From a virus, in the IMG/VR virus record IMGVR_UViG_3300033146_003479, positions 62,001 to 126,000 of that record: 64,000 nucleotides of DNA; one strand, given 5' to 3'. A model generated the notes under the pieces. It did not search any database. It saw only the letters and a program-made list of their open reading frames with translations, and was not told the origin of the DNA. Position 1 is the first letter of the stretch, and every line of letters begins with the position of its first letter. The translations under genes and the position numbers were made by a program. Positions 183 through 55,012 of the stretch are shown one piece after another.

Positions 183-1622
183 CTATCCTAACTTTAAATA
201 CACACAAGATAACTCATTTATCTTCAATGCTCCTTTATAAAATTCACCTAAAGTTTCAGATAATAAATCATTTTCATATAAAATAGCAAAGTCATAAAAA
301 TATTTCAATCCTTCTATCTTCGAAATGATATAATTATCTAAAATCATTCTTTCTTGAATATTTATACTTTTCTTTGATTTATCTAATTCTAATAAAAAAT
401 TCACAAAATCAGTATCATCTCGAAAGTTACTAATAAATTTCTCCTTAAATGCTCTTTGACAAACAGAAAACATTTCTCTCCATATATGAGGATATCGCAA
501 TATCTCATCCTTTCGTTTTAATCGACCAACGGATAACGATTCGAATTGTTTAAAATGAGAATCTATAATCTTCGTTGGGATTTTACCATATCTAGCAATG
601 GCCTTTTTACTTTTTCCTTCAATTTGAATGTTCCCGCTCATCCATGGATACTGCTTTAATTGACAATATAAATCTTTCTCCTCATCATTCACTTTACCTG
701 TAGCATAGAATGTAGTATCTCTAGATTGCAATGTTCTATGTGAGGTATCACTCCATCGCATAAAAAATCGAATTTCTGATAAATCCCAATCGTTCACTCG
801 AATTCGATCTAAATTAAAAGTCTCACATTTATTATTATCAGCATTAATTTTCTTTAATGAAATGGGAATCAATATTTTACTTAAAAAACAAGACTCAATA
901 TACTCATTGATATGATGAATGTTTCCATTTTCATAATTTACAATCTCCGATAATTCATCTAGAATTACTCTCTCACTTTGAATATCAACAAGCCAAATGT
1001 CCGCAGGATTCCAAGTTGATATTTTAGTAAATCGAGAAATTAAAGCATAAAATTCATCAATAAACTTCGATTTTCTATACACCTCGTATTCTTTTTTATC
1101 AGAATTTGACAAAAAAAATTGGATAAGTTTTGCCTGATACTCAAATGATTTTCTCCAATCTAGAGTAATTTGAGGATAGATATTCATAATATCCGATTCA
1201 TCAGGAAATACACCATCATTAATAATACTTTTAATATATAAACTAGAACACAACTCCTGTTGCTTCGTGAACATTGAGCCTTGAGAATTACTCGTACTAT
1301 TAATCCCTTTAAATTTATTTATTTTGGCTACATCATTTAATTTTATTTGAGTGAAAGTGTCATCATCATTCTTAACTACTATTGCTGGTATATATCGAGA
1401 ATTCATCTTAAACGTATCCAATATATCTCCCGTTTGAGGAGACACATTTTCTCGCAGAAGTTGTATTAAGTGTCTATTAAACTTGGATTCTATAATTTTC
1501 TTATTCCCATTCACTAATTCAATTTCAGAATCAAATTCTAAGATATCGGCTAAAATTTCTTGTCTAGTTTTTTTTAAATCATTATTGATTTTATAAAGAT
1601 CTTCTATTTTCAATCCTTGCAT
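183..1622 (-). CDS. Hypothetical protein, 479 aa, co-transcribed with uvsY-like gene
   Basis: A complete frame whose ATG overlaps the stop of the upstream UvsY-like gene by one base (TAATG), so the two are translationally coupled. I do not recognise the family. The N-terminal third (about residues 1-70) is helical and charged. Residues around 195-215 contain a striking STWNPADIWLVD segment, and the remainder is a soluble mixed alpha/beta sequence rich in aromatic and charged residues. No signal peptide, transmembrane segment or nucleotide-binding loop is visible. Its place directly behind uvsY and gp32-like genes suggests a replication, recombination or late-transcription role, but that is inference from position alone. 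Confidence 0.75.
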   Translation of the reverse strand: MQGLKIEDLYKINNDLKKTRQEILADILEFDSEIELVNGNKKIIESKFNRHLIQLLRENVSPQTGDILDTFKMNSRYIPAIVVKNDDDTFTQIKLNDVAKINKFKGINSTSNSQGSMFTKQQELCSSLYIKSIINDGVFPDESDIMNIYPQITLDWRKSFEYQAKLIQFFLSNSDKKEYEVYRKSKFIDEFYALISRFTKISTWNPADIWLVDIQSERVILDELSEIVNYENGNIHHINEYIESCFLSKILIPISLKKINADNNKCETFNLDRIRVNDWDLSEIRFFMRWSDTSHRTLQSRDTTFYATGKVNDEEKDLYCQLKQYPWMSGNIQIEGKSKKAIARYGKIPTKIIDSHFKQFESLSVGRLKRKDEILRYPHIWREMFSVCQRAFKEKFISNFRDDTDFVNFLLELDKSKKSINIQERMILDNYIISKIEGLKYFYDFAILYENDLLSETLGEFYKGALKINELSCVYLKLG

Positions 1623-2062
1623 TATCTATCACCATTTGTGAAACGGTCATACTTCAAAGCGAAATCTAAAGCATATGACTTTTGAGTTAATAAATTCTTA
1701 ATGTCAGTCAAAAATTCCAATTTAGTATTAATATGTTGAACATCTTGTTGAATTTGATTCCATTCTAAATCTGCCTCTATAGCAATTCTCATATCAGTTT
1801 TATTTGAAAATTTCACTTTCGAATTCATTCTTAAATCCAAATAAATCTCATATTCTTTTTTTCGCATTTTCTCTTCAAGATTATTATTCATCATTCGACA
1901 TTGAGCCATTAATCGAACTACCTTATGCATATGTGAAGGTAAATCCAACATTTCCTCTCTCATATTACTTCGATCAACTTCTACCATGCGTTGAAATTCA
2001 TTTAAACTTGTTTCTGGGAATATATTTTTATATCTCTCAGTATTTAATGCTTGATTTGACAT
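1622..2062 (-). CDS. uvsY: UvsY-like recombination mediator
   Basis: A 146-aa all-helical, highly charged protein, close to the 137 aa of T4 UvsY. In T4, UvsY helps load UvsX recombinase onto gp32-coated single-stranded DNA. The features that suggest it are the EYEIYLDLRMNSKVKFSNKT segment followed by D-(x)n-EADLEW and a C-terminal KSYALDFALKYDRF motif, which resemble the core and tail of the UvsY family. gp32 is immediately upstream on the same strand and UvsX is encoded elsewhere in the window, so both partners are present. A late-type TATAAATA box lies 43 bp upstream and a terminator separates it from gp32. The call rests on pattern and context rather than alignment. Confidence 0.65.
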   Translation of the reverse strand: MSNQALNTERYKNIFPETSLNEFQRMVEVDRSNMREEMLDLPSHMHKVVRLMAQCRMMNNNLEEKMRKKEYEIYLDLRMNSKVKFSNKTDMRIAIEADLEWNQIQQDVQHINTKLEFLTDIKNLLTQKSYALDFALKYDRFTNGDR

Positions 2063-2225: not shown

Positions 2226-3200
2226 TTATTTTTCTAAATCTTTAAAGTATGATGCAAAGTCATCTGCTTCTGTTGAGTCCTCACTTTTCAAACTTTCATC
2301 TTCAGTTTGACGACCTCTTCTAGATGAAGTTTCTTTTTCTAAGTCATCGAGAACATCTTTCTTTGTTGCTGAATATACTTTCGAATCACTTTCTCTAGAT
2401 GTAGTTTCAACATCTGGATTTGCACTTGAATCTTTTTCAAGACCTACTGACGACAGGAATTTTGTAAGTTTATCATCCTGTTCATCATAAGTTTTATATG
2501 AAGTGTCATTAATGACTTCTTGAAGATCATAAAGATTGTCTTCAATTTTATTCCATGTTAATGTTTTGAACTCAGGATCATTCTTATGTGATTCATTAAT
2601 TTGCTCAATACTCTTCTCAACGACAGTTGGAACTGCGAATTCACTAGATGTCCAAGTTGCATAACCTGAACTTGTATCTTTCTTCACTTTAATCTTGAAA
2701 TTAGCACCTTCATCTGGATCAAAAAATATGAGTGGTTCTTCTCCAGCAAATGTTGGGAAAAGTTTCTCTTGAATTATCTTAAAAAGTTGAGGTCCGAATT
2801 CGAAAAGAAATTGTTTACCTTCATTTGCGGGATTTCCTGGATCACTAACGACTAAAATATTTGAGTAATATGATTTCTTTCTATATGTTTTTTGCTCTTT
2901 AACCCAATCAGATGGTTGCGATTTATTCCACTCACAAATTGCACATGGCTTTCCAATTGTAGTTGGACATTTATCGATCATGAATCGTTTTCCAATATTA
3001 ATTGAATGCTTAAATACTGGTCTAAATGGAAGACCATCAACTTTTGAATCCGGTAAAAATCTAATAACAGCAAACCCATTAGAATCTTTATCTCTTGTTA
3101 ATTGCCAAAATCTCTCATCTCTTTGTTTTGAACCGTTAACACATGTCTGTTTTGTGTTAATTAAAATTTCTGAATAATTCCTCTTTTTTCTCTTTGTCAT
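2226..3200 (-). CDS. 32: gp32-like single-stranded DNA-binding protein
   Basis: A 324-aa homologue of T4 gp32 (301 aa), the ssDNA-binding protein of the replisome that coats unwound DNA and interacts with UvsX, UvsY and the helicase loader. The N-terminus is basic (KRKKR). The core contains IRFLPDSKVDGLPFRPVFKHS and a zinc site His65, Cys78, Cys86, Cys89, almost superposable on the T4 ligands H64, C77, C87, C90. A GNPANEGKQFLFEFG segment follows at about residue 125. The C-terminus (about 250-324) is acidic and Ser/Asp/Glu-rich, as expected for the protein-interaction tail. The start has a good AAGGAG site. It heads the leftward operon bordering the repeat-rich non-coding region. Confidence 0.95.
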   Translation of the reverse strand: MTKRKKRNYSEILINTKQTCVNGSKQRDERFWQLTRDKDSNGFAVIRFLPDSKVDGLPFRPVFKHSINIGKRFMIDKCPTTIGKPCAICEWNKSQPSDWVKEQKTYRKKSYYSNILVVSDPGNPANEGKQFLFEFGPQLFKIIQEKLFPTFAGEEPLIFFDPDEGANFKIKVKKDTSSGYATWTSSEFAVPTVVEKSIEQINESHKNDPEFKTLTWNKIEDNLYDLQEVINDTSYKTYDEQDDKLTKFLSSVGLEKDSSANPDVETTSRESDSKVYSATKKDVLDDLEKETSSRRGRQTEDESLKSEDSTEADDFASYFKDLEK

Positions 3201-3263
3201 GATTAAACTCCTTAATCCTTGTAATAACTAAAATAAACCTAACATCTTAAACTTCATAATATA

Positions 3264-3306
3264 TTTAGTGTTTTAAATGTATTACATATAAACCAAAAAC
3301 ACTAAA
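3264..3306. repeat. 11-bp inverted repeat upstream of gp32
   Basis: TTTAGTGTTTT (3264-3274) and AAAACACTAAA (3296-3306) form a hairpin with a 21-bp loop, 64-106 bp upstream of the gp32 start. A second ACACTAAAC unit follows at once. In T4, gp32 represses its own translation by binding a structured A/T-rich leader. A similar role here is possible but is inference. Confidence 0.4.
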
Positions 3307-3530
3307 CACTAAACATTAGAAGTTCGATTGCTTATAAAATAATATATCAAATGAAATGACTTTTTAAATAATTTATTAGCCATTTTTCGAAAAAACATTT
3401 AAATGTAATATTTGGACATTTATTTCATTAACAATTCATTAAACTTACGTTGCAATGGAGAAATAATCATTTAAAAAATAATTATTTCCGATACATTATA
3501 ATCCTAAAAATGAGATTAAAATATATTGGA

Positions 3531-3607
3531 GATCATCTTTGATGAATCAAAATTGGTACAATTTTGATCTCTTTTTCGAAGAAAAAGAGTAATAGGTGTT
3601 CTGAAAA
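3531..3607. repeat. 77-bp inverted repeat, left arm
   Basis: It matches the reverse complement of 3881-3957 at 76 of 77 positions, and similarity continues a few bases outward past a 2-bp indel (TATTGGA). The arm contains three short hairpins, each with a 3-nt loop: CATC-TTT-GATG, CAAAATTG-GTA-CAATTTTG, and a 9-bp stem CTCTTTTTC/GAAAAAGAG around GAA. Such dense internal structure within a conserved arm points to a functional DNA or RNA structure. Confidence 0.95.
3542..3592 (+). other. Possible 16-codon leader peptide inside the left repeat arm
   Basis: An ATG preceded by TTGGAG (about 10-nt spacing) opens a 16-codon frame reading MNQNWYNFDLFFEEKE before TAA. The inverted copy on the minus strand reads the same apart from residue 2 (Y), also inward. 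The hairpins may explain the sequence entirely, so this is a weak call. Confidence 0.2.
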
Positions 3608-3737
3608 TTAAGAATAAATGAAATTTTTTATTATTAATATTATCAATTACTTATTAATGAATGGACAAATAATTTTAAAAATAAATGTCAATGTAGATAT
3701 ATTCATTAGTCCTAGAAAAGAAAAAGAAGAAAAAAAT

Positions 3738-3851
3738 AAGGATAGGATAGGATAATAAGGATAGGATAGGATAATAAGGATAGGATAGGATAATAAGGAT
3801 AGGATAGGATAATAAGGATAGGATAGGATAATAAGGATAGGATAGGATAAT
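3738..3851. repeat. Six tandem 19-bp repeats (AAGGATAGGATAGGATAAT)
   Basis: Six exact head-to-tail copies of AAGGATAGGATAGGATAAT span 114 bp, followed by a partial AAG. Each copy is itself built from GGATA steps. The array lies off-centre between the 77-bp inverted arms, nearer the right one. Iterons of this kind are typical binding arrays for initiator or partition proteins. They also arise by slippage, so their role is open. Confidence 0.95.
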
Positions 3852-3880
3852 AAGAATTATCAATTTACATAAAAATTATT

Positions 3881-3957
3881 TTTTCAGAACACCTATTACT
3901 CTTTTTCTTCGAAAAAGAGATCAAAATTGTACCAATTTTGATACATCAAAGATGATC
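3881..3957. repeat. 77-bp inverted repeat, right arm
   Basis: This is the inverted copy of 3531-3607 with one mismatch (T for A at the GATGAATC/GATGTATC position). The two arms and the 273-bp core make a 427-bp unit. No target-site duplication was obvious in the AT-rich flanks. Confidence 0.95.
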
Positions 3958-4125
3958 CAATAATCATTATATTATAAATGTATAATCTTAATACTTTATT
4001 TTATTTTGGAGATTAATATTAATAAATGGACATATTAATGATATATTAATTATATAAAATTTGATTTTAATAAAAATATATGTTACATTAATAATGTTTT
4101 TATTAATTAAAAAAAGGAAATTATT

Positions 4126-6078
4126 ATGAAAAAGCAAATTGAAAAATTACAAACTATCATTAAACGTTCCAAAGAATTATATTATCATGGATTAATAAAT
4201 GATCCGGATTATATAACAGATCAAGAATATGATCAATTAGAAAAAGAATTAAAATCATTGGATCCTAATAATGAAATTTTAGATTATGTAGGATATGACA
4301 TATCTCAATCAACATTTAATAAAATTAAACATGTGGATAAAATGACTTCATTGGGAAAAGCATACACTGAAGAGGATATGCTACGTTGGAGAAAAGATTT
4401 TAATGATAATTTAAATATTATTGAATCTTTAAAAATGGATGGATTCGCAATAGAATTGGTTTATGAATGTGGTGAAGGTTCAGAATTTCAGGTAGAATAT
4501 ATTTTAAAGGAAGCATCTACAAGAGGAGATGGATTTATTGGAGAAGATATTACAGAAAATGTTAAAATGATTTCAGATATTCCTCATAGAATCATTATTA
4601 ATAATGATGATTTAAAAAAAGTAAATTCCACTATTAGAATTAGAGGAGAGATATTTATGAAAACAAGTATCTTTAATGAACTTCTAAAAGAAAATATCAT
4701 TGATGGAGAATCAAGAATTAGAAATATTGCTCCTGGATCAGTTAGACAAAAAGATCCTCTCGTTACTAAAAGAAGAAAACTAAACTTTTTTGCTTATGAT
4801 ATTAAAGGATGTGAATTTGATACATATAGTCAAAAAATGGAGTTTTTAAACAAAATGAAGATCCCAACAGTTCCAATGAATAAAATATCATTCGATGATA
4901 TGACGACTATGTATAACTCAATAATAATTAAAAAAGAGTTGATGGATTATCCCATCGATGGAGTAGTATTCAGATTAGATAATGAAGATGAATTTCAAAG
5001 TGCAGGAGAAACATCCCATCATCCAAAGGGATCTATTGCTTGGAAGTTTGAGGCTGAAACAGGAGTGAGTGTTTTGAGAAAAGTTGAATGGCAAGTAACA
5101 CGAACTGGACTTATTAATCCGGTAGGAAAATATGATCCAGTTGAAGTTGATGGAGCAATTTTAAGTGCCGCAACATTACATAACATTTCTCAGATGATGC
5201 GTTTAGATATTGGTATTGGAGATGAGATTGAAGTTGCTAGACAAGGTGGAGTGATTCCTAAAATATTCAGAGTTGTTTCAAAATCTTCAGCGGATAGTAC
5301 AGTGATAATTCCCTCAGAATGTCCAATATGTCATAAGCCAACTGAAATAGAAACTTCAGATGATGGTATAAAAACTTTACATTGCACAAATCATTTTTGT
5401 CCAGCAATCATGAAAGATCGTTTGAATCATTTTTGTAAAGTGATGGGTATAAAGGGAGTTTCTGATGCAATAATTAGTAAGTTGTATGATGAAAAGTTAG
5501 TTACAACTTTCGCTAATTTCTATGAATTGAAGATTGAAGATATTTTAAAATTAGATGGATTCAAACAGCGATCATCTGAAAAAATTATAAATGCAATTCA
5601 AGGACAACGAGAAGTTTCGTTTAATGTATTTTTAAGATCTTTGGGAATTCACACTTTAGGTAAAACATCATCGAAACTAATTGCAGATCGTTGTAACTCA
5701 ATAGAAGCGTTGGATGAATTAGAATTATCTGAGATTGAAGGTATTGGAGAAATTGGAGAAAATAGTATTAGAGAGGGGCTATTAGAGAATGAAGAATTAA
5801 TCACTCATTTATTGCAATATGTGACTATATCTATGGTGGACGAAACTATCTCTGAAGGTAAATTACAGAATCTTAATTTTTGTATAACTGGAAAACTTTC
5901 CGATAAGAAAATGATTCAATCCTTGATAGAATCCGCGGGAGGGAATATATTATCATCTGTGAGTTCTAAACTCGACTATTTGATATACGGTGATAAAGCA
6001 GGTAGCAAATTAGATAAAGCAAAGAAGAATAATGTTCCAATAATCACAGAAGATGAGTTCATGCTCATGTTAAAATGA
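4126..6078 (+). CDS. ligA: NAD+-dependent DNA ligase
   Basis: A full-length (650 aa) LigA-type ligase, which seals nicks using NAD+ and releases AMP and NMN. The order is classical. An N-terminal NMN-binding Ia region (YYHG..DPDYITDQEYDQL) leads to the adenylation domain with the catalytic Lys103 in KMDG and a STRGDG motif. An OB fold follows, then a Cys4 zinc finger around residues 400-430 (CPIC...CTNHFC), a helix-hairpin-helix region, and a C-terminal BRCT domain (about 575-650, NFCITGKLSDKKM). T4 itself uses ATP-dependent gp30, so an NAD+ ligase is a distinctive choice. The start has an AAAGGAA site. It is the first gene rightward of the repeat-rich region, so it may be transcribed from there. 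Confidence 0.97.
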   Translation: MKKQIEKLQTIIKRSKELYYHGLINDPDYITDQEYDQLEKELKSLDPNNEILDYVGYDISQSTFNKIKHVDKMTSLGKAYTEEDMLRWRKDFNDNLNIIESLKMDGFAIELVYECGEGSEFQVEYILKEASTRGDGFIGEDITENVKMISDIPHRIIINNDDLKKVNSTIRIRGEIFMKTSIFNELLKENIIDGESRIRNIAPGSVRQKDPLVTKRRKLNFFAYDIKGCEFDTYSQKMEFLNKMKIPTVPMNKISFDDMTTMYNSIIIKKELMDYPIDGVVFRLDNEDEFQSAGETSHHPKGSIAWKFEAETGVSVLRKVEWQVTRTGLINPVGKYDPVEVDGAILSAATLHNISQMMRLDIGIGDEIEVARQGGVIPKIFRVVSKSSADSTVIIPSECPICHKPTEIETSDDGIKTLHCTNHFCPAIMKDRLNHFCKVMGIKGVSDAIISKLYDEKLVTTFANFYELKIEDILKLDGFKQRSSEKIINAIQGQREVSFNVFLRSLGIHTLGKTSSKLIADRCNSIEALDELELSEIEGIGEIGENSIREGLLENEELITHLLQYVTISMVDETISEGKLQNLNFCITGKLSDKKMIQSLIESAGGNILSSVSSKLDYLIYGDKAGSKLDKAKKNNVPIITEDEFMLMLK

Positions 6079-6923: not shown

Positions 6924-7514
6924 TTGGATAAATTAGACCGATTACTAAAGGAAGTTGAGCGAATGTCGATAACTGAATATAATGAATTTTATACTAAAAC
7001 TAAAGAACAAATTGATGGTGGTTTAACATTAGATATTTTTGATTTCGATGTGACTCTTTGTTGTACCGATTCAAAAGTTATAAAGACTAATGCTGATGGA
7101 ACAATTCAAAAACTATCGTCCACGGAGTTTAATAATATTAATGATTCAACGCTTGATAAATCATCTCTTGACTTTTCAGAATTTCATGAGTTAATTAATC
7201 CTAAAGTGAATGAAGATGTCCTTCAAGCATTTCGATTTTCATTGAAAAATAGTCGAGTGATTATATTGACTGCGAGACAATCTTCGATTCCAATTAGAGA
7301 ATTCTTAACTATGAATAATTTACCTCAAATTCCCATTTATTGTGATGAATTTAAAAGAGAATTTATTGAGAATATAATTTTAAGTGGTACCACATCTAGT
7401 ATAAATTTCTTCGAAGATGCTCCAAATTACATTCGAGATGCTAGACTTTTACAGAGAAAGTATCCTAATTTTAATTTAAATATTCATGAAACTTCTTTGG
7501 ATGGGTTTGCATAA
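6924..7514 (+). CDS. HAD-superfamily phosphatase
   Basis: This protein has the HAD signature: motif I IFDFDVTL (Asp nucleophile and acid/base two residues apart, about D40 and D42), motif II IILTAR, and a late EDAPNYIRDA acidic motif IV. HAD enzymes of this size in phages include the 3'-phosphatase half of polynucleotide kinase, which removes 3'-phosphates so that nucleic acid ends can be ligated. Next to a ligase-like fusion and a CCA enzyme, end healing is the attractive guess. No P-loop kinase domain is present. I chose the TTG at 6924 because GGAG lies six bases upstream; an in-frame ATG at 6909 lacks a ribosome site. It overlaps the next gene by one base. Confidence 0.8.
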   Translation: MDKLDRLLKEVERMSITEYNEFYTKTKEQIDGGLTLDIFDFDVTLCCTDSKVIKTNADGTIQKLSSTEFNNINDSTLDKSSLDFSEFHELINPKVNEDVLQAFRFSLKNSRVIILTARQSSIPIREFLTMNNLPQIPIYCDEFKREFIENIILSGTTSSINFFEDAPNYIRDARLLQRKYPNFNLNIHETSLDGFA

Positions 7515-9037
7515 TGATTGATATAAAAATAAAGAATTTAACAAAAGTTTTAACTAGTGATAAAAAAATCAAAGAATTCTTTAATGATGAATATGTCATT
7601 ACTGAAAAGTTTGATGGGACAAAATTAACAATAACTAGAAATAGTGTTGAGTTCGATAAAAGGAATTATAGTAACAATTGGATAATATCATATAAGGGAA
7701 ATGTAATTCTAAGAGATGAGATTGATAATATTAAATTGAAAAGTGTTCGAGATCACTCGATAGGAATTTCTCAATATGCATTAGTTCATGAGCATATGCG
7801 ACGAATTCATAAAAAAACAGAACAGATTCCTACAAATACTGAATTTTTTATAGAATTTATAATGAGAAAGCCGACATTAACTAGAAAGTATAAAATTTAT
7901 CATTCATTAGTTTTTTTAAAGTGTGAACGAGTAATTTTTACTACTGATGATTTAGAGTATGTGTCATCGTCGGGTTCTCAGGTGTTTGGTAAGATTTCTC
8001 CATTCGAACAATTGCAATTTGCTAATACTTTAAATCTTCACTCGTTACCTATTTTATATGAAGGTAAATTACATTATAACAAATTGGACTGGAGAAAATC
8101 GTTAGATAGTATAATTGACACATTCACTTCTTTCGAATCGATTTTTGGAGGAACTCCTGAAGGAGTAGTATTACGTTCTATTAATAATCAGTATAAGATA
8201 GTTCAGTTGGATCAATATGATAGACGAACTAGAGATATTATTAAAAATCAGTGGAGAATGGCTGACGTTGAGGAGACTGAATATTGGGATAAAGTTTATC
8301 AATTATCATCGAATTGGGTATCATTAGTAAAGAAGAATAATCCTGATTATAATGTTCGATGTATGTTGAGAGAATTGAGTGATAATATATATAGTAGACG
8401 ACCTAAGGTATTGCATACTAAAAAGAAGGTCATTAATCGACAAGATGATATTTATTTGACTAGTAAAATAATGATTAAAAAATTATTAGATATTGGTATT
8501 AACACTAAAACATTAGGACTTATTCCTATGGCGGCTAAACCTCTACATAAAGGACACTGGAGTTTAATTGAAAAGGCGAGTCGTGAGTGTGATAAAGTCA
8601 TAATTTTCACATCAACAATTAGTCGAGAGTTTATGAGTATTAAATCAGTTAATGCTATGTGGGCAATAATTAAGCCTAATTTACCTGAAAATGTTAGTGT
8701 GAGAGTTGTCGCTTCTCCTATTAATTCGGTGAATAGAGAGTTAGCGTACTATGATATTGTTGGTAAAAGTCCTATTCCAGAAATCCATGTATATGGTGGA
8801 AATAAAGATGCTAATGTGTGGAGGAATGTTGTTAAACAAAATGTTAAATTAACTAACAATGATAAAATATTTGTGCATTTATTAGATACTAATATTGTTA
8901 ACATTAGTGGTTCTCAGATGAGAGAATTTGTGCGATTAAATGATAAAGTATCTTTTATTGATGGACTTCCCAAAGGGTTTTCTGATAAATGTAAGATTGA
9001 TATATGGAATCTGTTATATAATTTGGAGGAAAAATGA
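7514..9037 (+). CDS. Fusion of RNA/DNA ligase-like domain and NMNAT-like nucleotidyltransferase
   Basis: A 507-aa two-domain protein. The N-terminal half has covalent nucleotidyltransferase motifs of the ligase family: motif I EKFDG with candidate Lys32, a FFIEFIMRKP strand near 120, motif IV PEGVVLRS and motif V YKIVQLD. This looks most like an Rnl2-type RNA ligase core. The C-terminal half (from about 335) has PLHKGHW, an HxGH motif of the cytidylyl/NMN-adenylyltransferase fold, and ISGSQMREF, the matching ISxSxxR motif. It could join an end-sealing ligase to a nucleotidyl or NAD+-making activity. It overlaps the HAD gene by one base and the CCA enzyme by four, so the three are one translational unit. 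Substrates are inferred. Confidence 0.85.
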   Translation: MIDIKIKNLTKVLTSDKKIKEFFNDEYVITEKFDGTKLTITRNSVEFDKRNYSNNWIISYKGNVILRDEIDNIKLKSVRDHSIGISQYALVHEHMRRIHKKTEQIPTNTEFFIEFIMRKPTLTRKYKIYHSLVFLKCERVIFTTDDLEYVSSSGSQVFGKISPFEQLQFANTLNLHSLPILYEGKLHYNKLDWRKSLDSIIDTFTSFESIFGGTPEGVVLRSINNQYKIVQLDQYDRRTRDIIKNQWRMADVEETEYWDKVYQLSSNWVSLVKKNNPDYNVRCMLRELSDNIYSRRPKVLHTKKKVINRQDDIYLTSKIMIKKLLDIGINTKTLGLIPMAAKPLHKGHWSLIEKASRECDKVIIFTSTISREFMSIKSVNAMWAIIKPNLPENVSVRVVASPINSVNRELAYYDIVGKSPIPEIHVYGGNKDANVWRNVVKQNVKLTNNDKIFVHLLDTNIVNISGSQMREFVRLNDKVSFIDGLPKGFSDKCKIDIWNLLYNLEEK

Positions 9038-10458
9038 ATCGTAAAATAATTCGAGTTATAAGTGAATCTGAGAGAGAGTATTTTCAAGAATATTTAGATT
9101 TAGCCACAAATATTGATTCGCTGATGAAATTGAGGTTGATTTTAGTTGGAGGGTCTATCAGAGATTTATTAATTCGTGGTGATATTGTTGAACCTGAAAT
9201 TGATGATTTGGATTTTATGTTGGTTGATACCGATGGACATGGAGTCGTAGATGAAATTGATGTGTTGATGATTGAGTTGGCAAAATTAGATTATTCAATT
9301 GTGAATGACGGTAGAGAGTTTCTTCATTTCAAAGTAATACGAAATGGATTTGTGTTTGATATTGGTACTCCTCGAACTGAAATTTACGATGAATATAGTC
9401 GAAATCCGAAAGTTAAAGTGGGATCACTTCGAGATGATTATTTTAGACGAGATTTCACAGTTAATGCATTTTTTGCTCAAATAGTTAAGGTCGATGATCG
9501 AGTTGAATTGGAGTTATGTGGAGATGATGAGTTAATATCACGCTCGTATGATGATCTTTTATCGACCACATTGAACACTACTCAATATGAATCTAACGTT
9601 GTATTTGAAGAGGATCCTTTACGTATTCTACGAGCGATACGATTCATGGGGTATGGTTTTCAGTGTTCGAAGGAAATGAGTGTTGCTATTGATAATTTTG
9701 ATATGAATATATTCTTTAGGAAGGTATCGAAAGAGAGAGTTGCTATTGAATTGAAGAAGATATTAAGACGAGGAGATTTAGATTATTTTTTTGATCATCG
9801 AATTGTTAATAAGATTATTCCTGAATTTGATAATTTTATAAATCGAGAATATGAGTTTGATGAAATTGAGCATATTAAGAATGTGATTTTGAAAAGTCGA
9901 GAGTTATCTAATGACGATATGTTTTTATTAGTAGCATTATTTCATGATTTAGGTAAAAGTATAACTGGTACTATTCATAAAAGTCAAACTCGTTGGGCAT
10001 TTTTAGGACACGAAGATATATCATCAAAATGGGCGTACGATACTCTTAGACGATATCGATTTGATAATCAAACTTGCAATTCAGTGAGAGATATTGTGAA
10101 AATGCATATGTCATTGAAGTGGATTTCAAATTGGAAAAAAGGAACTATAGTGAAATTCATATTAAAACATTCACCAACATTAATACGTAATATTTTAGTA
10201 TTTAATCACATGGATTGGGGTGGAAAATCTGAGGAGTGGAAGATTAAATATAATGTGGCACAATCATTGGAAACGATAGATGAGATTGTGAATTATTGGA
10301 TAGACATTGTTGATGAAGTGGTGTTTTTTTATAGCAATGAACTAAGAGAAATTGGAGTTAATGCTAATGCTAATAAAAACATTCCACGAAATGAGTTACG
10401 AAATATTATTATTGGTGAAAAAATGAGATTTATTTTAAATAAGGAGAAATTATTGTGA
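9034..10458 (+). CDS. cca: tRNA nucleotidyltransferase (CCA-adding enzyme / poly(A) polymerase family) with HD domain
   Basis: A 474-aa class II nucleotidyltransferase. The pol-beta head has VGGSIRDLL (39-46) and the metal-binding DLD at about 58-60, followed by FDIGTPRTEIY and RRDFTVNAFF. The neck motif EDPLRILRAIRF is diagnostic for the CCA-adding/poly(A) polymerase family. The C-terminal part carries an HD-type phosphohydrolase motif (LVALFHDLGKS) as in bacterial CCA enzymes with 2',3'-cyclic phosphodiesterase or phosphatase activity. It should repair or complete tRNA 3' ends. With an RNA-ligase-like fusion and an HAD phosphatase immediately upstream, a tRNA-repair role during infection is plausible. 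A poly(A) polymerase activity cannot be excluded. Confidence 0.93.
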   Translation: MNRKIIRVISESEREYFQEYLDLATNIDSLMKLRLILVGGSIRDLLIRGDIVEPEIDDLDFMLVDTDGHGVVDEIDVLMIELAKLDYSIVNDGREFLHFKVIRNGFVFDIGTPRTEIYDEYSRNPKVKVGSLRDDYFRRDFTVNAFFAQIVKVDDRVELELCGDDELISRSYDDLLSTTLNTTQYESNVVFEEDPLRILRAIRFMGYGFQCSKEMSVAIDNFDMNIFFRKVSKERVAIELKKILRRGDLDYFFDHRIVNKIIPEFDNFINREYEFDEIEHIKNVILKSRELSNDDMFLLVALFHDLGKSITGTIHKSQTRWAFLGHEDISSKWAYDTLRRYRFDNQTCNSVRDIVKMHMSLKWISNWKKGTIVKFILKHSPTLIRNILVFNHMDWGGKSEEWKIKYNVAQSLETIDEIVNYWIDIVDEVVFFYSNELREIGVNANANKNIPRNELRNIIIGEKMRFILNKEKLL

Positions 10459-14478: not shown

Positions 14479-15072
14479 ATGATAACAGTGACTGGTGGAA
14501 TTTCTGTAGGGAAAAGTTTAATTGTGAATTATATATCAAATGAATATAATTTCAATATTATATCTGTGGATTTGATAGGACATCAAGTATTGTTGTGTGA
14601 AGATATTAAACGAGAAATATCATTTAATATTTCGAGTAAGATATTTGATATTAATGATAATATTGATCGACAAAAACTTGGGAAAATAGTTTTCTCTAAT
14701 AAAAAAAAGTTGGAGACATTGAATGCCATTGTGGGTCCATCTATTTTCTCTAAATTAAATGATGCTATTGAAGACTTGGGAGGGAAATCATCGAATGTTA
14801 TTTTGGAGCACCCAAAGATATTAGAATTCGATTATTATCGAGAATTTTCTCCGATAATTCAAGTTTCATCGATAAATCAATTACAGTGGCTAATGGAGAG
14901 AGATGGTATAAATGAGTCGGAAGCATTAATGAAAATAAATAGTCAATCTAAATTGTCAGAATTGATGAATAAGCCTGACTTTATGATTTCAACTGGTAAT
15001 TCAATGAGTGATAATTTAGAACAAGTTGATGTTATAATGGATTCTTTAATGTATAAAAAAATTAAAAGTTGA
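14479..15072 (+). CDS. Dephospho-CoA kinase-like P-loop kinase
   Basis: A 197-aa P-loop kinase. The Walker A is GGISVGKS (6-13), followed by SVDLIGHQVL, IDRQKLGKIVF, and ILEHPKILE in the order seen in dephospho-CoA kinase (CoaE), which phosphorylates dephospho-CoA in the last step of CoA synthesis. T4 gp1, a deoxynucleotide monophosphate kinase, has a related fold, so a dNMP kinase role is a real alternative and would suit the nucleotide genes nearby. The expected LID arginines are weak (LMERDGINESEALMKI). It has its own strong promoter and a TTGGAG ribosome site. Confidence 0.7.
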   Translation: MITVTGGISVGKSLIVNYISNEYNFNIISVDLIGHQVLLCEDIKREISFNISSKIFDINDNIDRQKLGKIVFSNKKKLETLNAIVGPSIFSKLNDAIEDLGGKSSNVILEHPKILEFDYYREFSPIIQVSSINQLQWLMERDGINESEALMKINSQSKLSELMNKPDFMISTGNSMSDNLEQVDVIMDSLMYKKIKS

Positions 15073-20216: not shown

Positions 20217-23022
20217 GTTTACTTTTTAATTCGTCAATCTCTTTCTTTAAGTTCTGCATTTCACTTATCATCGGAGCAATCAACTGAATATAATCTATAG
20301 CATCGGGTATCATTTCAAATTCAGACCTATTTTGAGAGTATTTCTTTTTAGTTTCTTTAAGTAGACGAGTTTTCTCTTTACTCGAAGGTAAATTCTGAAT
20401 TTCATGAATTGCCTTTGGGATATATGTTACTGCTGTCGTATTTATTTTGTCTAATTCTTCTGCAATTAAACCGAATTCCAAATTATTCTCGCTAGTACCT
20501 ATTCTATTATATACAACTGGAGTTAGTTCGTATATCCAATCACTTTTTTCTATTGTTTTAATGTTAGTTTTATATCTTTTAGATGATGTATGTCTATATA
20601 ATAGATTTTCTTCATTCACATAAACTGGTCCGAAGCCTATTATAGGATAGTCGTCTGGAGTATTTGGCTGACAATCGCTACCATCTGCGACATTGTATAT
20701 ATTTCCAATAAAGCATCTATGAGAAGATGGAGTAGTAGATGTGGTACCAATAACTATGCAATCATTAACAGCCCCTCCAGTAGAATAAATATCTGCATTT
20801 TGTCCGATGATGATGTTGTCATCTCCACTAGTTACTACTTGTCCCGCTAGGTGTCCAATAATTGTATTATCATATCCCGAAGATATATGATCTCCCGCAT
20901 TTCTGCCAATACATATGTTACCGTGACCAGTAGTATACCTTTGTCCAGAGTATGCTCCAAAACTAATATTATTATCGCCTGTGTTGGACCCATTTACACC
21001 TATTCCTGCACTATATCCCATCGCAACATTATAATCTCCAGTAGTATATCTATTAGCATAATTCCCGATTGCAACATTATAATCTCCAGTCGTTGTCAAT
21101 GATAGTGATGAATATCCAATTGCAACATTGCTACCTCCAGACGTTATCAATGCTAGTGATGAACGACCAAGAGCAGTATTGTTATTTCCAGATGTTATAT
21201 TCAGTCCACTTTGATAGCCAATAAATGAATTACCACTTCCAGTTGAATTTCCATCACTTCCTCGTCCCGCATTATAACCATTTGTAACGTTATATGATGA
21301 TGTAATATAACGTCCTGCATTATATCCTATTGCAACATTGTAATTTTGCGTAGAGACACTTGCTTGAGCGTATGATCCAATTGCAACATTGCTACCTCCA
21401 GTCGTTATTGATGATAGTGATACTCTGCCAAGAGCAGTATTGTTGCTCCCAGATGTTATATTCAGTCCACTTTGATAGCCAACAAATGAATTGCTACTTC
21501 CAGTTGAATCTCCATCACTTCCTCGTCCACTTTCATATCCTATAGTAACGTTAGATGCAGATATAATATAACGTCCTGCACTATATCCTATAGCAACATT
21601 GTTACTATGCGTAGAGTTGCTCGATTGAGCATAATAGCCTATTGCAACATTGCTACCTCCAGTTGTTATTGATAATAGTGATAATCGACCAAGAGCAGTA
21701 TTGTTGCTCCCAGATGTTATATTCAGTCCACTTTGATAGCCAATAAATGAATTACCACTTCCAGTTGAATCTCCATCACTTCCTCGTCCCGCATTATATC
21801 CTATAGTAACGTTAGATGATGATGTAATATACTGTCCTGCATTATATCCTATCGCAACATTGTAGTACTGTGTAGAGACACTTGCTTGAGCGTATGATCC
21901 AATTGCAACATTGTTACCTCCAGTCGTTATTGATGATAGTGATGAATATCCAAGAGCAGCATTGTTGCTTCCAGATGTTATAGTTAGTCCACTTTGATAG
22001 CCAACAAATGAATTTCTAGTTCCAGATGTTATATTCAGTCCACTTTGATAGCCAACAAATGAATTGCTACTTCCAGTTGAATCTCCATCACTTCCTCGTC
22101 CACTTTGATATCCTATTGTAACATTAGATGATGATGTAATGTAACGTCCTGCATTATATCCTATCGCAACATTGTTACTATGCGTAGAGACACTCGATTG
22201 AGCATAATAGCCTATTGCAACATTGCTATCTCCAGTTGTTATTGATGATAGTGATGAATATCCAAGAGTAGAATTGTTATTTCCAGATGTTATAGTTAGT
22301 CCACTTTGATAGCCAACAAATGAATTGCTACTTCCAATTGAATTTCCATCACTTCCTCGTCCCGCATTATATCCTATAGTAACGTTAGATGATGATGTAG
22401 TATACTGTCCTGCATTATATCCTATCGCAACATTACTACTATGTATTCTGTTACTCGCTTGAGCATAATATCCAATTGCAACATTACGAGTCCCAGTTGT
22501 TATTGATGATAGTGATGAATATCCAATTGCAACATTATGAGTCCCAGTCGTTATTGATAATAGTGATGAATATCCAAGAGCAGTATTGTAATTGCTACCA
22601 CTTTCGATATTGGCTCCTGATTGGTATCCTATCAAAGTATTTCCAGATCCAAGAGTTGCTTCAAATTCCAATCGATTTCCTTCCCAAGAAATTCCTGAAT
22701 TTTCTATCACATTAGTTCCTGAAAAAATAGCAAGTTGATTATCGACCCCTGCTCCAGTAATATTATTCATTATCACATCTTCCTTAAGTGCTAATGCATC
22801 AGTTATATATCCTTGAGTGCATAACGTGTCGTTATTGTTTGTTCCAGATGCTATATTCGAAATTAGTTGACTATCCAGATTGAGAGAGTCTCGAATATGT
22901 AGTTCGTGAAAAAATGCTTTATCCCACTGATTAGTGTTGTCTCCTAACGTTAGATTTCCTGTAGATGGGAATATATTCCCATCTGATATTAATCCATGTT
23001 TAACTTTAAATTCATTTGCCAT
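20209..23022 (-). CDS. Tail fibre with YadA-head-like repeats and C-terminal peptidase S74 chaperone
   Basis: A 937-aa fibre. After an N-terminal region (FKVKHGLISDGNIFPSTGNL) residues about 120-730 are made of NNVAIGY / NTALGYSSL / SFVGYQSGL strands, the trimeric beta-roll repeat type of YadA heads. These are organised in about five 87-residue super-repeats marked by NVTIGYNAGRGSDG. The C-terminus carries an intramolecular chaperone of the peptidase S74 type (SKRYKTNIKTIEKSDWIYEL...FGLIAEEL), whose Ser-Lys pair cuts itself off after trimer folding, and ends in a coiled coil (MQNLKKEIDELKSKL). It should form a receptor-binding trimer. A GATAAATA late box lies upstream. Confidence 0.93.
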   Translation of the reverse strand: MANEFKVKHGLISDGNIFPSTGNLTLGDNTNQWDKAFFHELHIRDSLNLDSQLISNIASGTNNNDTLCTQGYITDALALKEDVIMNNITGAGVDNQLAIFSGTNVIENSGISWEGNRLEFEATLGSGNTLIGYQSGANIESGSNYNTALGYSSLLSITTGTHNVAIGYSSLSSITTGTRNVAIGYYAQASNRIHSSNVAIGYNAGQYTTSSSNVTIGYNAGRGSDGNSIGSSNSFVGYQSGLTITSGNNNSTLGYSSLSSITTGDSNVAIGYYAQSSVSTHSNNVAIGYNAGRYITSSSNVTIGYQSGRGSDGDSTGSSNSFVGYQSGLNITSGTRNSFVGYQSGLTITSGSNNAALGYSSLSSITTGGNNVAIGSYAQASVSTQYYNVAIGYNAGQYITSSSNVTIGYNAGRGSDGDSTGSGNSFIGYQSGLNITSGSNNTALGRLSLLSITTGGSNVAIGYYAQSSNSTHSNNVAIGYSAGRYIISASNVTIGYESGRGSDGDSTGSSNSFVGYQSGLNITSGSNNTALGRVSLSSITTGGSNVAIGSYAQASVSTQNYNVAIGYNAGRYITSSYNVTNGYNAGRGSDGNSTGSGNSFIGYQSGLNITSGNNNTALGRSSLALITSGGSNVAIGYSSLSLTTTGDYNVAIGNYANRYTTGDYNVAMGYSAGIGVNGSNTGDNNISFGAYSGQRYTTGHGNICIGRNAGDHISSGYDNTIIGHLAGQVVTSGDDNIIIGQNADIYSTGGAVNDCIVIGTTSTTPSSHRCFIGNIYNVADGSDCQPNTPDDYPIIGFGPVYVNEENLLYRHTSSKRYKTNIKTIEKSDWIYELTPVVYNRIGTSENNLEFGLIAEELDKINTTAVTYIPKAIHEIQNLPSSKEKTRLLKETKKKYSQNRSEFEMIPDAIDYIQLIAPMISEMQNLKKEIDELKSKLT
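20740..22640 (-). repeat. 261-bp coding super-repeats in the S74 fibre gene
   Basis: The landmark CTCGTCC recurs at 21261, 21522, 21783, 22095 and 22356. The spacings are 261, 261, 312 and 261 bp. The 312-bp unit carries an extra 51 bp (17 residues, NSFVGYQSGL type). Units are nearly identical, which invites unequal recombination. Confidence 0.9.
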
Positions 23023-24283: not shown

Positions 24284-27200
24284 ATGGCTAAATTATCGAA
24301 CACTACAATATTAGATGTTGTTGGAAAACAAGGATTAGGGGTCTCATCTACTAATAATGATAAAAATTATTTTGAGGAATCGTATGAATGGAGACCTCAG
24401 TTAACTATAGATGATATTTTTGGTGAAATCGTTCCCATTGCGAATAATCCAACTGAAGCCGATGTAAATGTTGCCAATAATCCAACTATTATCGAAAAGA
24501 TAGTTGATTATCAGATGACAGAAATTCCGGCTAGCAATGGACAAGGATACGGAGTATTTTCTATCCCTGGTGATACCAATTCTTCACGACTCAAAGACTT
24601 TTTGACTCCGCAAAAATTTGGAAACGGATATGCTTGTATAATCAAAAACAACACTTCAGTGATAGATTTATCGATGGGACAATTTACTGTCGATTATGCA
24701 AACGGTATTATTAGATTTGATGTCGCTAGTGTTCCATCAACAATGGGCTGGACTTCATTGAATATTACTATATATAGATATGTTGGAGCGAAGGTTGAAG
24801 GAGGAACAAGTTCTAGTTCAGGTTTCGAAATGACATTTGTCGATGCAGATTTAACTGCGGGCATTTTAACAGTACCTCACAACTTAAATTCCACCAATAA
24901 TGTTGTTCATATAACTATTCGAGATGATAATAATGATGTTGTTGTGCCCGATAATGTGGAATTCGTGAACTCTAATAGTTCAGTTATTGATTTTAGTTCG
25001 TATTCTCCAATATCTAATACTTGGGCATTGACGGTTGGGATTGGAGGTTCGGGAACTGGAGAAGCAAGTGAAGTGACAGTTGATCCACTTCAGGTTGCAG
25101 GAAACACAGTTGATGCATTAACGGGAAGTTATACTTGGCTCAATCAGCAGATATCGGGGTTGCCGGATCCACATAATATATCATTACACAACATTGTAAA
25201 TATATCATATATGGTACCATCTCAACTATGGATAAACACAGAATTAACATCGAATGGTTCGACAAATTATATATTAATTCCAATATCAGGTAATACCTCA
25301 GAATATATAGTGGCAGGACAACATTTGATAGTAACTGGAGGGATTGCGAATGGAAATGAATATGTTATTGATGGTCAAATTGTATTGGATGGAGCCGCTA
25401 TTCCCACATATCACTTAGTCGAAGTTCAATTAGTTTCAGGTTCAGCGATAAGTTTTCCCACATATCCCACCACGGATAGTCCAACTTCTATAGATAGACC
25501 TGGGGGAGCACAACTGATATCTGTTGAATCTCAAGTTACTTCTGTTTCTGTAACATCCATTGGAATAATAAATTCCACGAGTGTTGCTAAGTCAATATCT
25601 AACATTGATATTTATTCAACTCATTTCATTCAAAATGGATACTTAGGGATTAATAAAAATGATCCTAAATATCCATTAGATGTTGATGGAGTTATTAATG
25701 CAGATGAAGTCATTTCGAATTCATCCTTGAATAAATTTAATATTGATTCAAATAGTGTTGATCTTATTGAAAATGATTTAGTATTTTTCGGAAAGAGTCC
25801 TAATAACAACTTAATGTTATCTAGTTCATTCGTTAAATCATATGATGAGGATTCTGAAGGAGTAAACGATAATATAGTTACAGGGAATCCCGATATGACT
25901 ATTGCTCCATATGGATTAGATTGTTTTGTTACATTAGTTAGTGGAGGAACAAATTATCAGTTAGAGTCATATACTATAGATTCAAATGGAGTAACACTGG
26001 GGTCAATATATGATTTAGGAGTTTCATTTCCTAATACGACTCAGTTATTTCCAATAAAGGCTACACATCAAACTCAAAGTGTCGAATCTCTTGATCATGT
26101 TGTTGGTTTATTTAGAAGTGATGTGACAACAAACACATATCATACTGGATATTATGATGTTAGTTCTAGTGTTGGTTGGAATATTACTCCTATAATATCA
26201 TTTAGAGATACTACTCATTCTATTCCATCAACATATAGATTTAAACGAATGATTTCGATTAAAACTAATGTTGGCAATGATTATGATCGATATTACGCAG
26301 TTTTAATGCAAGATGGTGGAGATGAATATTATATTCAAATGATAAAACTAGATATTGAATCTCAAGTTGAAACTATTGGTTCAATGAGAGTTTTGCCGTC
26401 TGGAGTAAATTATTCTGATAGTGAGATTTTTGCTCATTATCGAGAAAATTCCGGAGATGTGATTTTATTTTATGAGAACTCTGTGGGAGATTTTATAATT
26501 TGTTCAGCATCATGTGATTCTAGTGATATGAATGTTGAAGAATTCACAATATATAATATCATGAATTTAGATAAAGGTAGATTGCTATATGTAGAATGCT
26601 TTGATACTTATATTGGGACTAATTCATTTAACTTTAAAGCGATAGTTCATCATACTGGCAGTTTCACTATTCACGAATCGAGTTTCAAGAGTGGTGTTAG
26701 AAATATTGAATCTTATGTTCTAAAGGATAATGATTTAGAAGTTCACGGAGTGCATACATTTGTTATGAAACAGATGGGACTCAGTAGTCGAATAGTAGCG
26801 TTTGGACATCATACTGATACTTCGGTAGTTGTTATTGACTTGCTCGATAAAACAATGAAGAGCATTAAGGGCTCCACTGTAACCTGGGATTTTATTGGAC
26901 TAGAATCTGCAAGATTGAGAATGGTCCCATTAAGCGATAGATTATCACACTTAGAATATGCAGATCGATTTAAGACATTAAAGTTTTTTAATTCTGAAGT
27001 TGGAATTTTAAAGGAAGTTAAAGATGATGTGGCGTATGTGATGATGAATGGAGTATATTATAGTGAAAGTAATAGATTTAATGTGGGAGATAATGTAGCA
27101 TTAGGATCTATAGATTTAGGTGCAACGAGCGATTTGGGATTTTCAACGAATACTTCTTGTGGTATAAATTTAGGATCCATTATTGCTCCAAACACATTAT

Positions 27201-38214: not shown

Positions 38215-40977
38215 TTACCAATTCGAAATTCCTAATCCCGTCAATAAAGAACTACTTTGAGTGTTAGATGCATATGTGATTCGAACAAACATAGTTCTAT
38301 TAATTCCACTATCACTTGAATATGTTCCAAGAGTAAACTCAACAGAACCATCGATACTAGGAGAATGAGATGTTGAATTAATTCTACAACCTTCTTCTGA
38401 ATCTATTTCATAACAAGTCCATGTTATACCACCATCAACAGTTGTTCCACCAACAGTTGTTCCCCAAACTGGTTCGGTTGCTCCTGAACTACCTGAATCA
38501 ACAGTAACTTTGTACTTATATCCGTTAGAAACTGTAGGTACAGCCCAATCGCCAATAGAATAATCAGTACTTAATGACCAAACATCATCTACAAATTTCA
38601 CATTATCTTCAAATGTACTTAGAGTGTATGGTGAATTCAATGAAATCCAATCCGTTTTTGTAGGAACTTTGATGTCAATTTTAACGTTACCTGAACTTAA
38701 ATCCACATCAGTAATTCCCGGTAAGTCAATGATTCCATTTGAATTATCAATTGTTCCTTGAAAAATTCTATGATAATCGTAATCAGTTCCTGCGGCTAAT
38801 CCTGAATAATCAGGTCCTACAGGCAAACGACCTGATGAATAATCAACACTTGGATGAGCAAGTCCTCTAGTAGTTGCTCCACTTTCATCATAAACTTGAA
38901 GTTCATTTGCAAGAGTTGATAGAGAAGTAGTTCCAGTCCAATTTCCGGTTAATGATCCGGGAACAACATCGAAGTTGGTAGTTCTTGGGAATCTATAGTT
39001 TTCATCGACGAAATATTCATACGTGGTATCAGATAAATTCGGAATGCTCATAATGGATATGTTTTGATTCGCAGTGATATCTGAAATATAAGTTCCATAT
39101 GGGTCTTGTGGAGTGGCTGTAACTCGTACGTTATTTTCTTCTTGATTAGCGAGAACTGTAAATGTATATGCGGCAATAGTCATTGTGTCGCCAATAGTTG
39201 GAGGAGTAGTAACTCCTGAAACAGAAGGATCACTGTAAACTATTCCAGTGGATGCTACTCCTGGGAAACCACTTACCACAACAGGAGCATTAGATGAATG
39301 ATATACGTTATTAAATCCATTACTAACAATCGTTCCATAATTGAAAGTTGCTCCTGTATCATAATAAGGTACACCAGATAAGTGTTTTACTACAGGAACA
39401 TCTTCAGTTAATGTTGAAGAAGCAACACTAGGATCAGCACCCACATCAGTATCTAAAAATAATTCATATGTAGATGAAGTGTCTGCTCCTCTTGTCATAT
39501 ATAGCGAGTTGTATCCTTGTCGGAATAAGGCAGAGTTAGAAACATTAACAGTTGCACTACCTTTTTGATAAACATTGGCTTCAATGTTTTGTGTCCAATT
39601 GACAGTGTTTAGAGTTAAGTTTCCGTTACCTATTCCTGCGTTAGTAAATGGAACGATACCGTTTGTTACTGGGTCACCAGTTCCTGCTAAATCATAATCG
39701 GCTAAAATTTGTGACCCTCCTCGATTAGTCTCATTAAAATTTATCGCTAAATCCAATGCCCCTATGCTTCCTCCATTAAACATTACATTTAATTGGTCTA
39801 TGCTAGCATTATTAAAAGAAGTTGTTGTAGTACTAAAAGTATTTGATGTAGGAATGTCGGTTGAACGAGATATATAATTTAATAGATCGCCAGCACTAGT
39901 TGATCCATAATTAATATTTCCTTGAGATATTCTACCAGAAAATCTAGTGATAGTATTTTCAATTTCTATAGCATTTGGGGCTTCTGGAGCATGCAAATAG
40001 GCTGTTGAGTCATCGATGAAGACGGTATCAGATGTTCCCGGACAAACCAGAATTCTATTGATGTTTGCTCCTAATGGAGTCTCATCTGCTTCTCCAACAA
40101 AAAGGTTGAAATTTGAGGTCTCAACCCAATCGGTTCCATTGAAAGTAAATGTTACATCAGCATACTGTGTGCCTTCTTTTACTAGAAGTCTATCTCCATC
40201 TTGAGGACTTCCATCACTATCTTGACCATCTTCAATTAATGTCCAAGTTAATCCTACATTATCCCAAATATATTTTCTATCATTTTCAAGTCCTATTGTT
40301 AATGCTGTGAAAAGAACTATGTCGCCAGACACTAAAGTCACACCATCAATTACTGGATCAGCAGACCATCCAGTTAACACTGTAGAAGAAGTATCTAATA
40401 CTCTAACTGGTTGTCTCCAACTATCATCGCTAGTTCCACCTGAAGTATTTTCATCTGCCAACATGTCTCCGATATATCTATATGCAGTTAACGTCAGTGG
40501 AGTTGACCATCCCATATCAGTTGGAGTATTACCTTCATTGAATCTTAATATACCATTATGATAATCCATTTGATATGATCCGGTAGTTAAATCGAGAACT
40601 GTTCCACCACTATCCTTCAATATGAATCCATACCCATTTCCATATTTTTGAGGAGTTAGAAAGTGTTGAAGTCGCAATGATGTGGTATTGCCAGGAGTAG
40701 CAAAGGCAGAATATCCTTGAGCGTTACTTGCAGGTAATTCATCAATCTGATAGTCGGTGAGTTTTGATATCAAAGTGGGATTAGCGGAAACATTTGCATC
40801 TGCGGCTGTTGGGTTGGAAGCCGTAGGTATAGTGTTTGCAAAAATATCAGTTTTGTCTAATTGTGGACTCCACTTAAACATTTCTTCGAAATAATTTTTA
40901 TCATTCGTTGTACTGAGTACGCCCAATGACATCTTATTGGTGACATCTTGAATTGTGGTGCTATTTAATTTAGCCAT
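38215..40977 (-). CDS. Tail fibre, family-A N-terminus plus shared C-terminal module, 920 aa
   Basis: Residues 1-175 are the family-A module (MAKLNSTTIQDVTNKMSLGV, KNYFEEMF, FLTPQKYGNGY, YHNGILRFNE). Residues about 190-300 are the adaptor module (PVRVLDTSSTVLTGWSADPV, DGVTLVSGDIVLFTAL, GDRLLVKEGTQYADVTFTFN). The remaining about 550 residues form the large C-terminal module shared with three other minus-strand genes, including ELQVYDE, YHRIFQGTIDNSNGIIDLPG and TWTCYEIDSEEGCRIN. It is about 97% identical at DNA level to the 919-aa gene over part of this module. Likely a receptor-binding fibre with a duplicated sister. Confidence 0.82.
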   Translation of the reverse strand: MAKLNSTTIQDVTNKMSLGVLSTTNDKNYFEEMFKWSPQLDKTDIFANTIPTASNPTAADANVSANPTLISKLTDYQIDELPASNAQGYSAFATPGNTTSLRLQHFLTPQKYGNGYGFILKDSGGTVLDLTTGSYQMDYHNGILRFNEGNTPTDMGWSTPLTLTAYRYIGDMLADENTSGGTSDDSWRQPVRVLDTSSTVLTGWSADPVIDGVTLVSGDIVLFTALTIGLENDRKYIWDNVGLTWTLIEDGQDSDGSPQDGDRLLVKEGTQYADVTFTFNGTDWVETSNFNLFVGEADETPLGANINRILVCPGTSDTVFIDDSTAYLHAPEAPNAIEIENTITRFSGRISQGNINYGSTSAGDLLNYISRSTDIPTSNTFSTTTTSFNNASIDQLNVMFNGGSIGALDLAINFNETNRGGSQILADYDLAGTGDPVTNGIVPFTNAGIGNGNLTLNTVNWTQNIEANVYQKGSATVNVSNSALFRQGYNSLYMTRGADTSSTYELFLDTDVGADPSVASSTLTEDVPVVKHLSGVPYYDTGATFNYGTIVSNGFNNVYHSSNAPVVVSGFPGVASTGIVYSDPSVSGVTTPPTIGDTMTIAAYTFTVLANQEENNVRVTATPQDPYGTYISDITANQNISIMSIPNLSDTTYEYFVDENYRFPRTTNFDVVPGSLTGNWTGTTSLSTLANELQVYDESGATTRGLAHPSVDYSSGRLPVGPDYSGLAAGTDYDYHRIFQGTIDNSNGIIDLPGITDVDLSSGNVKIDIKVPTKTDWISLNSPYTLSTFEDNVKFVDDVWSLSTDYSIGDWAVPTVSNGYKYKVTVDSGSSGATEPVWGTTVGGTTVDGGITWTCYEIDSEEGCRINSTSHSPSIDGSVEFTLGTYSSDSGINRTMFVRITYASNTQSSSLLTGLGISNW

Positions 40978-55000: not shown

Positions 55001-55012
55001 ATATCTCCTTTA

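Follow-up and report, generated by a model that had tools for sequence, protein, structure and literature searches.

Several origins of replication are used in phage T4 and no motif is common to them, and oriE, oriF and oriG are located where transcription diverges and strand composition switches (PMC3016281). OriE also bears iterons, and iterons are found at the same place in close T4 relatives (PMC3016281). The locus described here, a non-coding gap between divergent gp32 and ligA genes, resembles oriE in its T4-superfamily background, its position at a divergence and composition switch, its evenly spaced direct repeats, and the recurrence of repeats at this position in relatives (PMC3016281). 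The repeats are 12 nt in oriE and 19 bp here, and unlike oriE the present element, a putative origin, has near-perfect 77-bp inverted arms of contiguous hairpins and lies between gp32 and ligA. With the R-loop origins oriF, or ori(uvsY), and oriG it shares an AT-rich stretch suited to unwinding, a composition switch and a nearby uvsY, but these were described without iterons and hairpin arms, both of which are present here (PMC3016281). Iteron plasmid origins (e.g. R6K gamma) and the PLE satellite origin (PMC7145576) also combine, in non-coding DNA, tandem repeats with an adjoining AT-rich stretch, whereas our locus has inverted hairpin arms and no recognised initiator gene alongside. In our proposal the element would work like an iteron origin, by analogy and not as a member of an experimentally defined class. 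Moreover, Arbiol et al. (2010; cited in PMC4177764) reportedly described mobile regulatory cassettes of T4-type phages, intergenic stem-loop units that can be duplicated and shuffled. Our locus is likewise an intergenic stem-loop unit of such a kind, but it is far larger, has iterons and no terminator-like site, and is found at one place here and at two in a relative.

The window (the whole stretch of 64,000 nucleotides that was analysed) comprises bases 62001-126000 of a 134,396-base IMG/VR record. Because its proteins match gp32, UvsY, primase, helicase, clamp loader, UvsX, gp23-like major capsid protein (MCP), portal and terminase of the T4 superfamily, the phage is, judged by these matches, an uncultured T4-superfamily virus. 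A search of annotated phages gave no close relative, the best MCP matches being about 35–42% identical. With ORFs called mechanically, and two short low-complexity ORFs inside it discounted as spurious, the gp32-ligA gap (hereafter the hub) is the sole gap longer than 300 bp in the record, which agrees with the preliminary description of it as the only long non-coding gap. Its GC content is among the lowest 0.1% of 925-bp windows in the record. Transcription diverges at the hub, with nearly all genes at 2–65 kb of the record on the minus strand and those at 66–82 kb on the plus strand, and replication and recombination genes flank it. No initiator (Rep) gene was recognised among its neighbours, which comprise gp32, UvsY, ligA and proteins that do not match Rep, and these genes have no RepEA/RepEB-type match in PHROGs or Pfam. 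In the window, neither Rfam nor tRNA searches gave a match.

Several other genes of the window have features of their own. One gene, 7514-9037 (+), encodes an RNA-ligase-like N-terminal part (PHROG 27149, 548) apparently fused to a C-terminal part like cytidylyltransferase / nicotinamide-nucleotide adenylyltransferase (PHROG 3041, 3462), and a tRNA nucleotidyltransferase and a dephospho-CoA kinase (CoaE) are encoded at 9034-10458 (+) and 14479-15072 (+), in the early gene block beside ligA. A 261-bp coding repeat occurs in six copies at 20906-22561 inside one minus-strand gene (937 residues), and long arrays of 21-bp (7-residue) repeats lie at 53505-56445 in two or three minus-strand genes near putative tail genes. 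Four large minus-strand paralogues (38215-40977, 40988-42907, 47285-50044 and 50374-53046) all match one gene (24683-26548) of the relative G001 introduced below; they are probably a lineage-specific expansion of tail or fibre proteins.

The coordinates of the hub and its neighbours are summarized in Table 1. The preliminary description reported two inverted arms matching at 76 of 77 positions, which was confirmed; the arms are spaced by 273 nt and, allowing a 2-nt bulge, their pairing continues slightly outward beyond the 77 bp. Three mini-hairpins with 3-nt loops had also been proposed for each arm. Folded as DNA, the left arm indeed forms three hairpins back to back without spacers (z = -5.2) and the right arm mirrors them (z = -6.1), but the outermost hairpin, in which the single mismatch between the arms falls, is weak. 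Stems of at least 9 bp with a 3-nt loop number 4 in the gap against 0.01–0.07 expected, and DNA folding of the whole element gives -95 kcal/mol, compared with -27.6 +/- 3.5 for shuffled sequences (z = -19). Between the arms, the six 19-bp direct repeats noticed earlier were recovered as perfect copies, the number of which comes from a metagenome assembly and may be wrong; G is absent from the gp32-sense strand of this array. The adjoining AT-rich stretch is a candidate unwinding element.

Table 1. Features of the gp32-ligA region (positions in the window)
Feature	Position	Strand	Details
UvsY-like recombination mediator	1622-2062	-	
gp32 single-stranded DNA-binding protein	2226-3200	-	
Non-coding hub	3201-4125		between divergent gp32 (-) and ligA (+); 925 bp, 20.3% GC
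Left inverted-repeat arm	3531-3607	+	pairing reaches 3524 with a 2-nt bulge
Left-arm hairpin 1	3533-3545		5 bp, loop TTT
Left-arm hairpin 2	3546-3568		10 bp, loop GTA
Left-arm hairpin 3	3569-3589		9 bp, loop GAA
AT-rich stretch	3608-3734		15.7% GC, lowest 0.2% of record; A/G-rich tract at its end
Direct repeats	3735-3854	+	AATAAGGATAGGATAGGAT, 19 bp, 6.3 copies, 100% identical
Right inverted-repeat arm	3881-3957	-	76/77 to left arm; pairing reaches 3962
Right-arm hairpin	3899-3919		9 bp, 3-nt loop
Right-arm hairpin	3920-3942		10 bp, 3-nt loop
Right-arm hairpin	3944-3954		4 bp, weaker, 3-nt loop
Promoter-like block	4061-4089	+	TTGATT-N17-TACATT, TG before -10; common to G001 upstream of its ligA
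NAD-dependent DNA ligase (ligA)	4126-6078	+	

The cumulative GC skew of the record reaches its minimum at 64–66 kb, coinciding with the element. Since the genes also diverge there, skew was evaluated at fourfold-degenerate third positions with coding strand and side of the element fitted jointly. In this fit, side contributes +0.113 (0.05–0.17) in addition to +0.078 for coding strand; the strand correction depends on a small number of genes on the opposite strand, and the switch falls where transcription diverges. When all breakpoints were scanned, the best one was at 63–67 kb, within about 2 kb of the element (p = 0.005, with values permuted among same-strand genes), and the bootstrapped breakpoint has a median of 66 kb, quartiles of 64–70 kb and a wide 10–90% range of 58–100 kb. 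The sign of the skew is the usual one for bidirectional forks with G-rich leading strands.

In order to compare, relatives were collected. Single-protein searches of IMG/VR with ligA and the helicase returned none, while alignments of MCP and gp32 succeeded; a gp32 alignment against GTDB genomes gave no match. The relative found by MCP alignment, IMGVR_UViG_3300033146_000850 (G001; 126,063 bases), is 56% identical in MCP, 40–43% in gp32 and 42–44% in ligA. In the 1.46 kb upstream of its gp32 there is no credible gene, the small ORFs in the repeats being taken as spurious. This hub contains three units of ~305 bp, in all of which the hairpin GTGCCGT-TCTT-ACGGCAC occurs together with a long hairpin; ~30-bp C/T-rich repeats, a triple hairpin and CGTG repeats follow. 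A second hub, located at 98,714-99,824 with a gp55-like late sigma gene on one side and ligA on the other, is an inverted, diverged copy (mostly 87–94%) of the first one (L024 1-1467). Between the copies, hairpins are conserved at 268 of 270 positions compared with 592 of 640 elsewhere (Fisher 5e-6). In one of the copies a stem lacks a base on each side (T7/A7 vs T6/A6); this paired loss keeps the pairing, but could alternatively come from template switching within the palindrome. The best-fit skew breakpoint of G001 is at 108 kb (p about 0.05), away from the hub, and its skew mainly tracks the coding strand; only the cumulative-residual minimum (99.3 kb) coincides with the second hub. The layout of G001 is uncertain because its assembly ends inside the first hub. 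At the G001 end (125347-125988; L030 5347-5988), a terminase-like start with a Walker-A motif runs into CVEYSTKIKY, which we take to resemble the start of an intein.

Another relative, IMGVR_UViG_3300033146_003203 (L037; gp32 38% identical), has in the 710 bp before its gp32 two other tandem arrays, a ~22-bp hairpin directly abutting a 6-bp GC hairpin, C/T-rich 15-bp iterons, and a GC-rich hairpin. The preliminary description's proposal to look for the arms and iterons in relatives had a divided outcome: the same arm sequence was not found, while hairpins and tandem arrays of other spelling lie upstream of gp32 in both G001 and L037. Tandem arrays occupy the same place with different letters in the window phage, G001 and L037, the three genomes that form the lineage sample, and these have no conserved hub sequence in common. 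The gp32-sense strand of the array next to the hairpins is G-free or nearly so in all three, although the likeness of such C/T tracts is weak evidence alone because low-complexity tracts resemble each other easily.

Among 110-nt windows folded as DNA, the 7 most stable in G001 (of 2291), the 3 most stable in L037 (of 101) and 3 of the top ten in the window phage (of 2442) lie inside the hub, which is therefore a structured region in each genome despite the unshared sequence. A strict scan for perfect back-to-back hairpins picked out the arms of the element and three further sites in the record and missed the hairpins of G001 and L037, because their loops are longer or their stems imperfect, as did the first hairpin count (9 bp, loop 3–8). 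The claim of contiguous hairpins in all three hubs is therefore based on folding and not on the strict scan. At 74 other, more distant gp32 loci, the next upstream ORF is at most about 225 bp away (by mechanical ORF calls, with a few loci cut by contig ends). Repeated 10-mers within 1.5 kb upstream of gp32 number 153 here, 219 in L037 and 798 in G001, compared with 0–64 in 36 of these 74 loci. Four cyanophage gp32 regions are compact without a comparable gap, and the first gp32 relative (L005) has no such region.

Since two distant relatives keep a similarly built, differently spelled region before the same gene and the strand composition switches here, we regard it as probable, on sequence grounds, that the gap is a bidirectional replication origin of a T4-superfamily phage, with the 427 bp as its core. 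The preliminary description had listed an origin beside a packaging or partition site and a mobile element; composition switch, synteny and the architecture in two relatives favor the origin, and the other entries fared poorly, as discussed below. In the proposed process, a phage or host protein would assemble on the 19-bp array and melt the adjoining AT-rich stretch. The arms would then snap into runs of hairpins with 3-nt loops, or pair mutually as a cruciform, and these hairpins may hold the bubble open and mark the loading place for gp32, helicase and primase. Forks would depart both ways, one to gp32, uvsY, helicase and primase and the other to ligA. R-loop priming as at oriF and oriG is possible.

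The same arrangement could instead belong to a hub for two divergent early operons, in which hairpins and repeats insulate or control transcription of gp32 and ligA, or stabilise their leader RNAs, without acting as an origin. The element is located between two divergent promoters, both G001 copies are upstream of phage genes too (gp32 in one case, ligA and the gp55-like gene in the other), and, with arms in both orientations, the same hairpins could be present in the two transcripts. The promoter-like block just upstream of ligA is also common to G001; this block, which includes TTGA[TC]T-N17-TA[CT]ATT, is the sole clear sequence-level similarity between the two hubs (E 3e-8). It is probably the ligA promoter, but it lies outside the element and is directed away from it. 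Generally, sigma70-like matches are at chance level (12 vs 11.6 expected in the scan), no single promoter directed into the AT-rich stretch stands out, and the terminator scan gave nothing above chance. A purely regulatory role would moreover leave unexplained the strand-corrected skew switch and the AT-rich stretch with iterons, and we consider it rather unlikely.

A role in recombination, inversion or packaging, in which the inverted hairpin arms are cut or paired during recombination-dependent replication or mark the packaging start, seems still less likely. It is suggested by G001, where recombination between the two inverted, 87–94% identical hubs would invert ~98 kb, so that the gene order becomes gp32-hub-ligA as in the window phage, but that layout is the uncertain one mentioned above and the record of the window phage has a single hub copy. 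UvsY is encoded two genes from the hub, and a gp47/SbcD-like gene lies close to the second G001 hub. Nothing speaks for the packaging or partition site suggested earlier: the terminase gene is ~64 kb from the element, T4-type headful packaging requires no fixed cut site, and a partition gene was not found among the proteins scanned. Near-perfect terminal inverted repeats around a non-coding core would also suit a small non-autonomous (MITE-like) element inserted between gp32 and ligA. That idea is already largely refuted and we hold it to be very unlikely, because, at the sensitivity applied, the arm sequence occurs nowhere else among the sequences searched (the record, annotated phages, plasmids, and IMG/VR and GTDB genomes) and a target-site duplication is lacking. 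No direct repeat is made by the flanks ATATTGGAG and CAATAATCA, which prolong the inverted repeat instead, and in relatives the corresponding position is occupied by a hub of other spelling. The search for further copies with target-site duplications, which the preliminary description had recommended, was accordingly empty at this sensitivity. In these searches, the 10-bp hairpin pattern had no match in IMG/VR; the 18-mer TAATAGGTGTTCTGAAAA had three, all in one similar stretch without hairpins, and these were attributed to chance. The AT-rich part had a 52-nt plasmid match (E 3e-3), which was rejected as low complexity.

Returning to the origin reading, a broader and more tentative proposal is that this lineage initiates at an origin type undescribed for T4, with contiguous hairpin runs beside a G-poor array in front of gp32, retaining its form through full turnover of the sequence, and that duplicated inverted origins, as in G001, let a ~98-kb segment flip between two gene orders. 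This is possible but doubtful at present. A lineage that retains hairpin runs and a strand-biased array at one position upstream of gp32, with changing letters, allows the requirements of a T4-type origin to be studied by comparison; the implied requirement would be for shape and composition, not for a particular motif.
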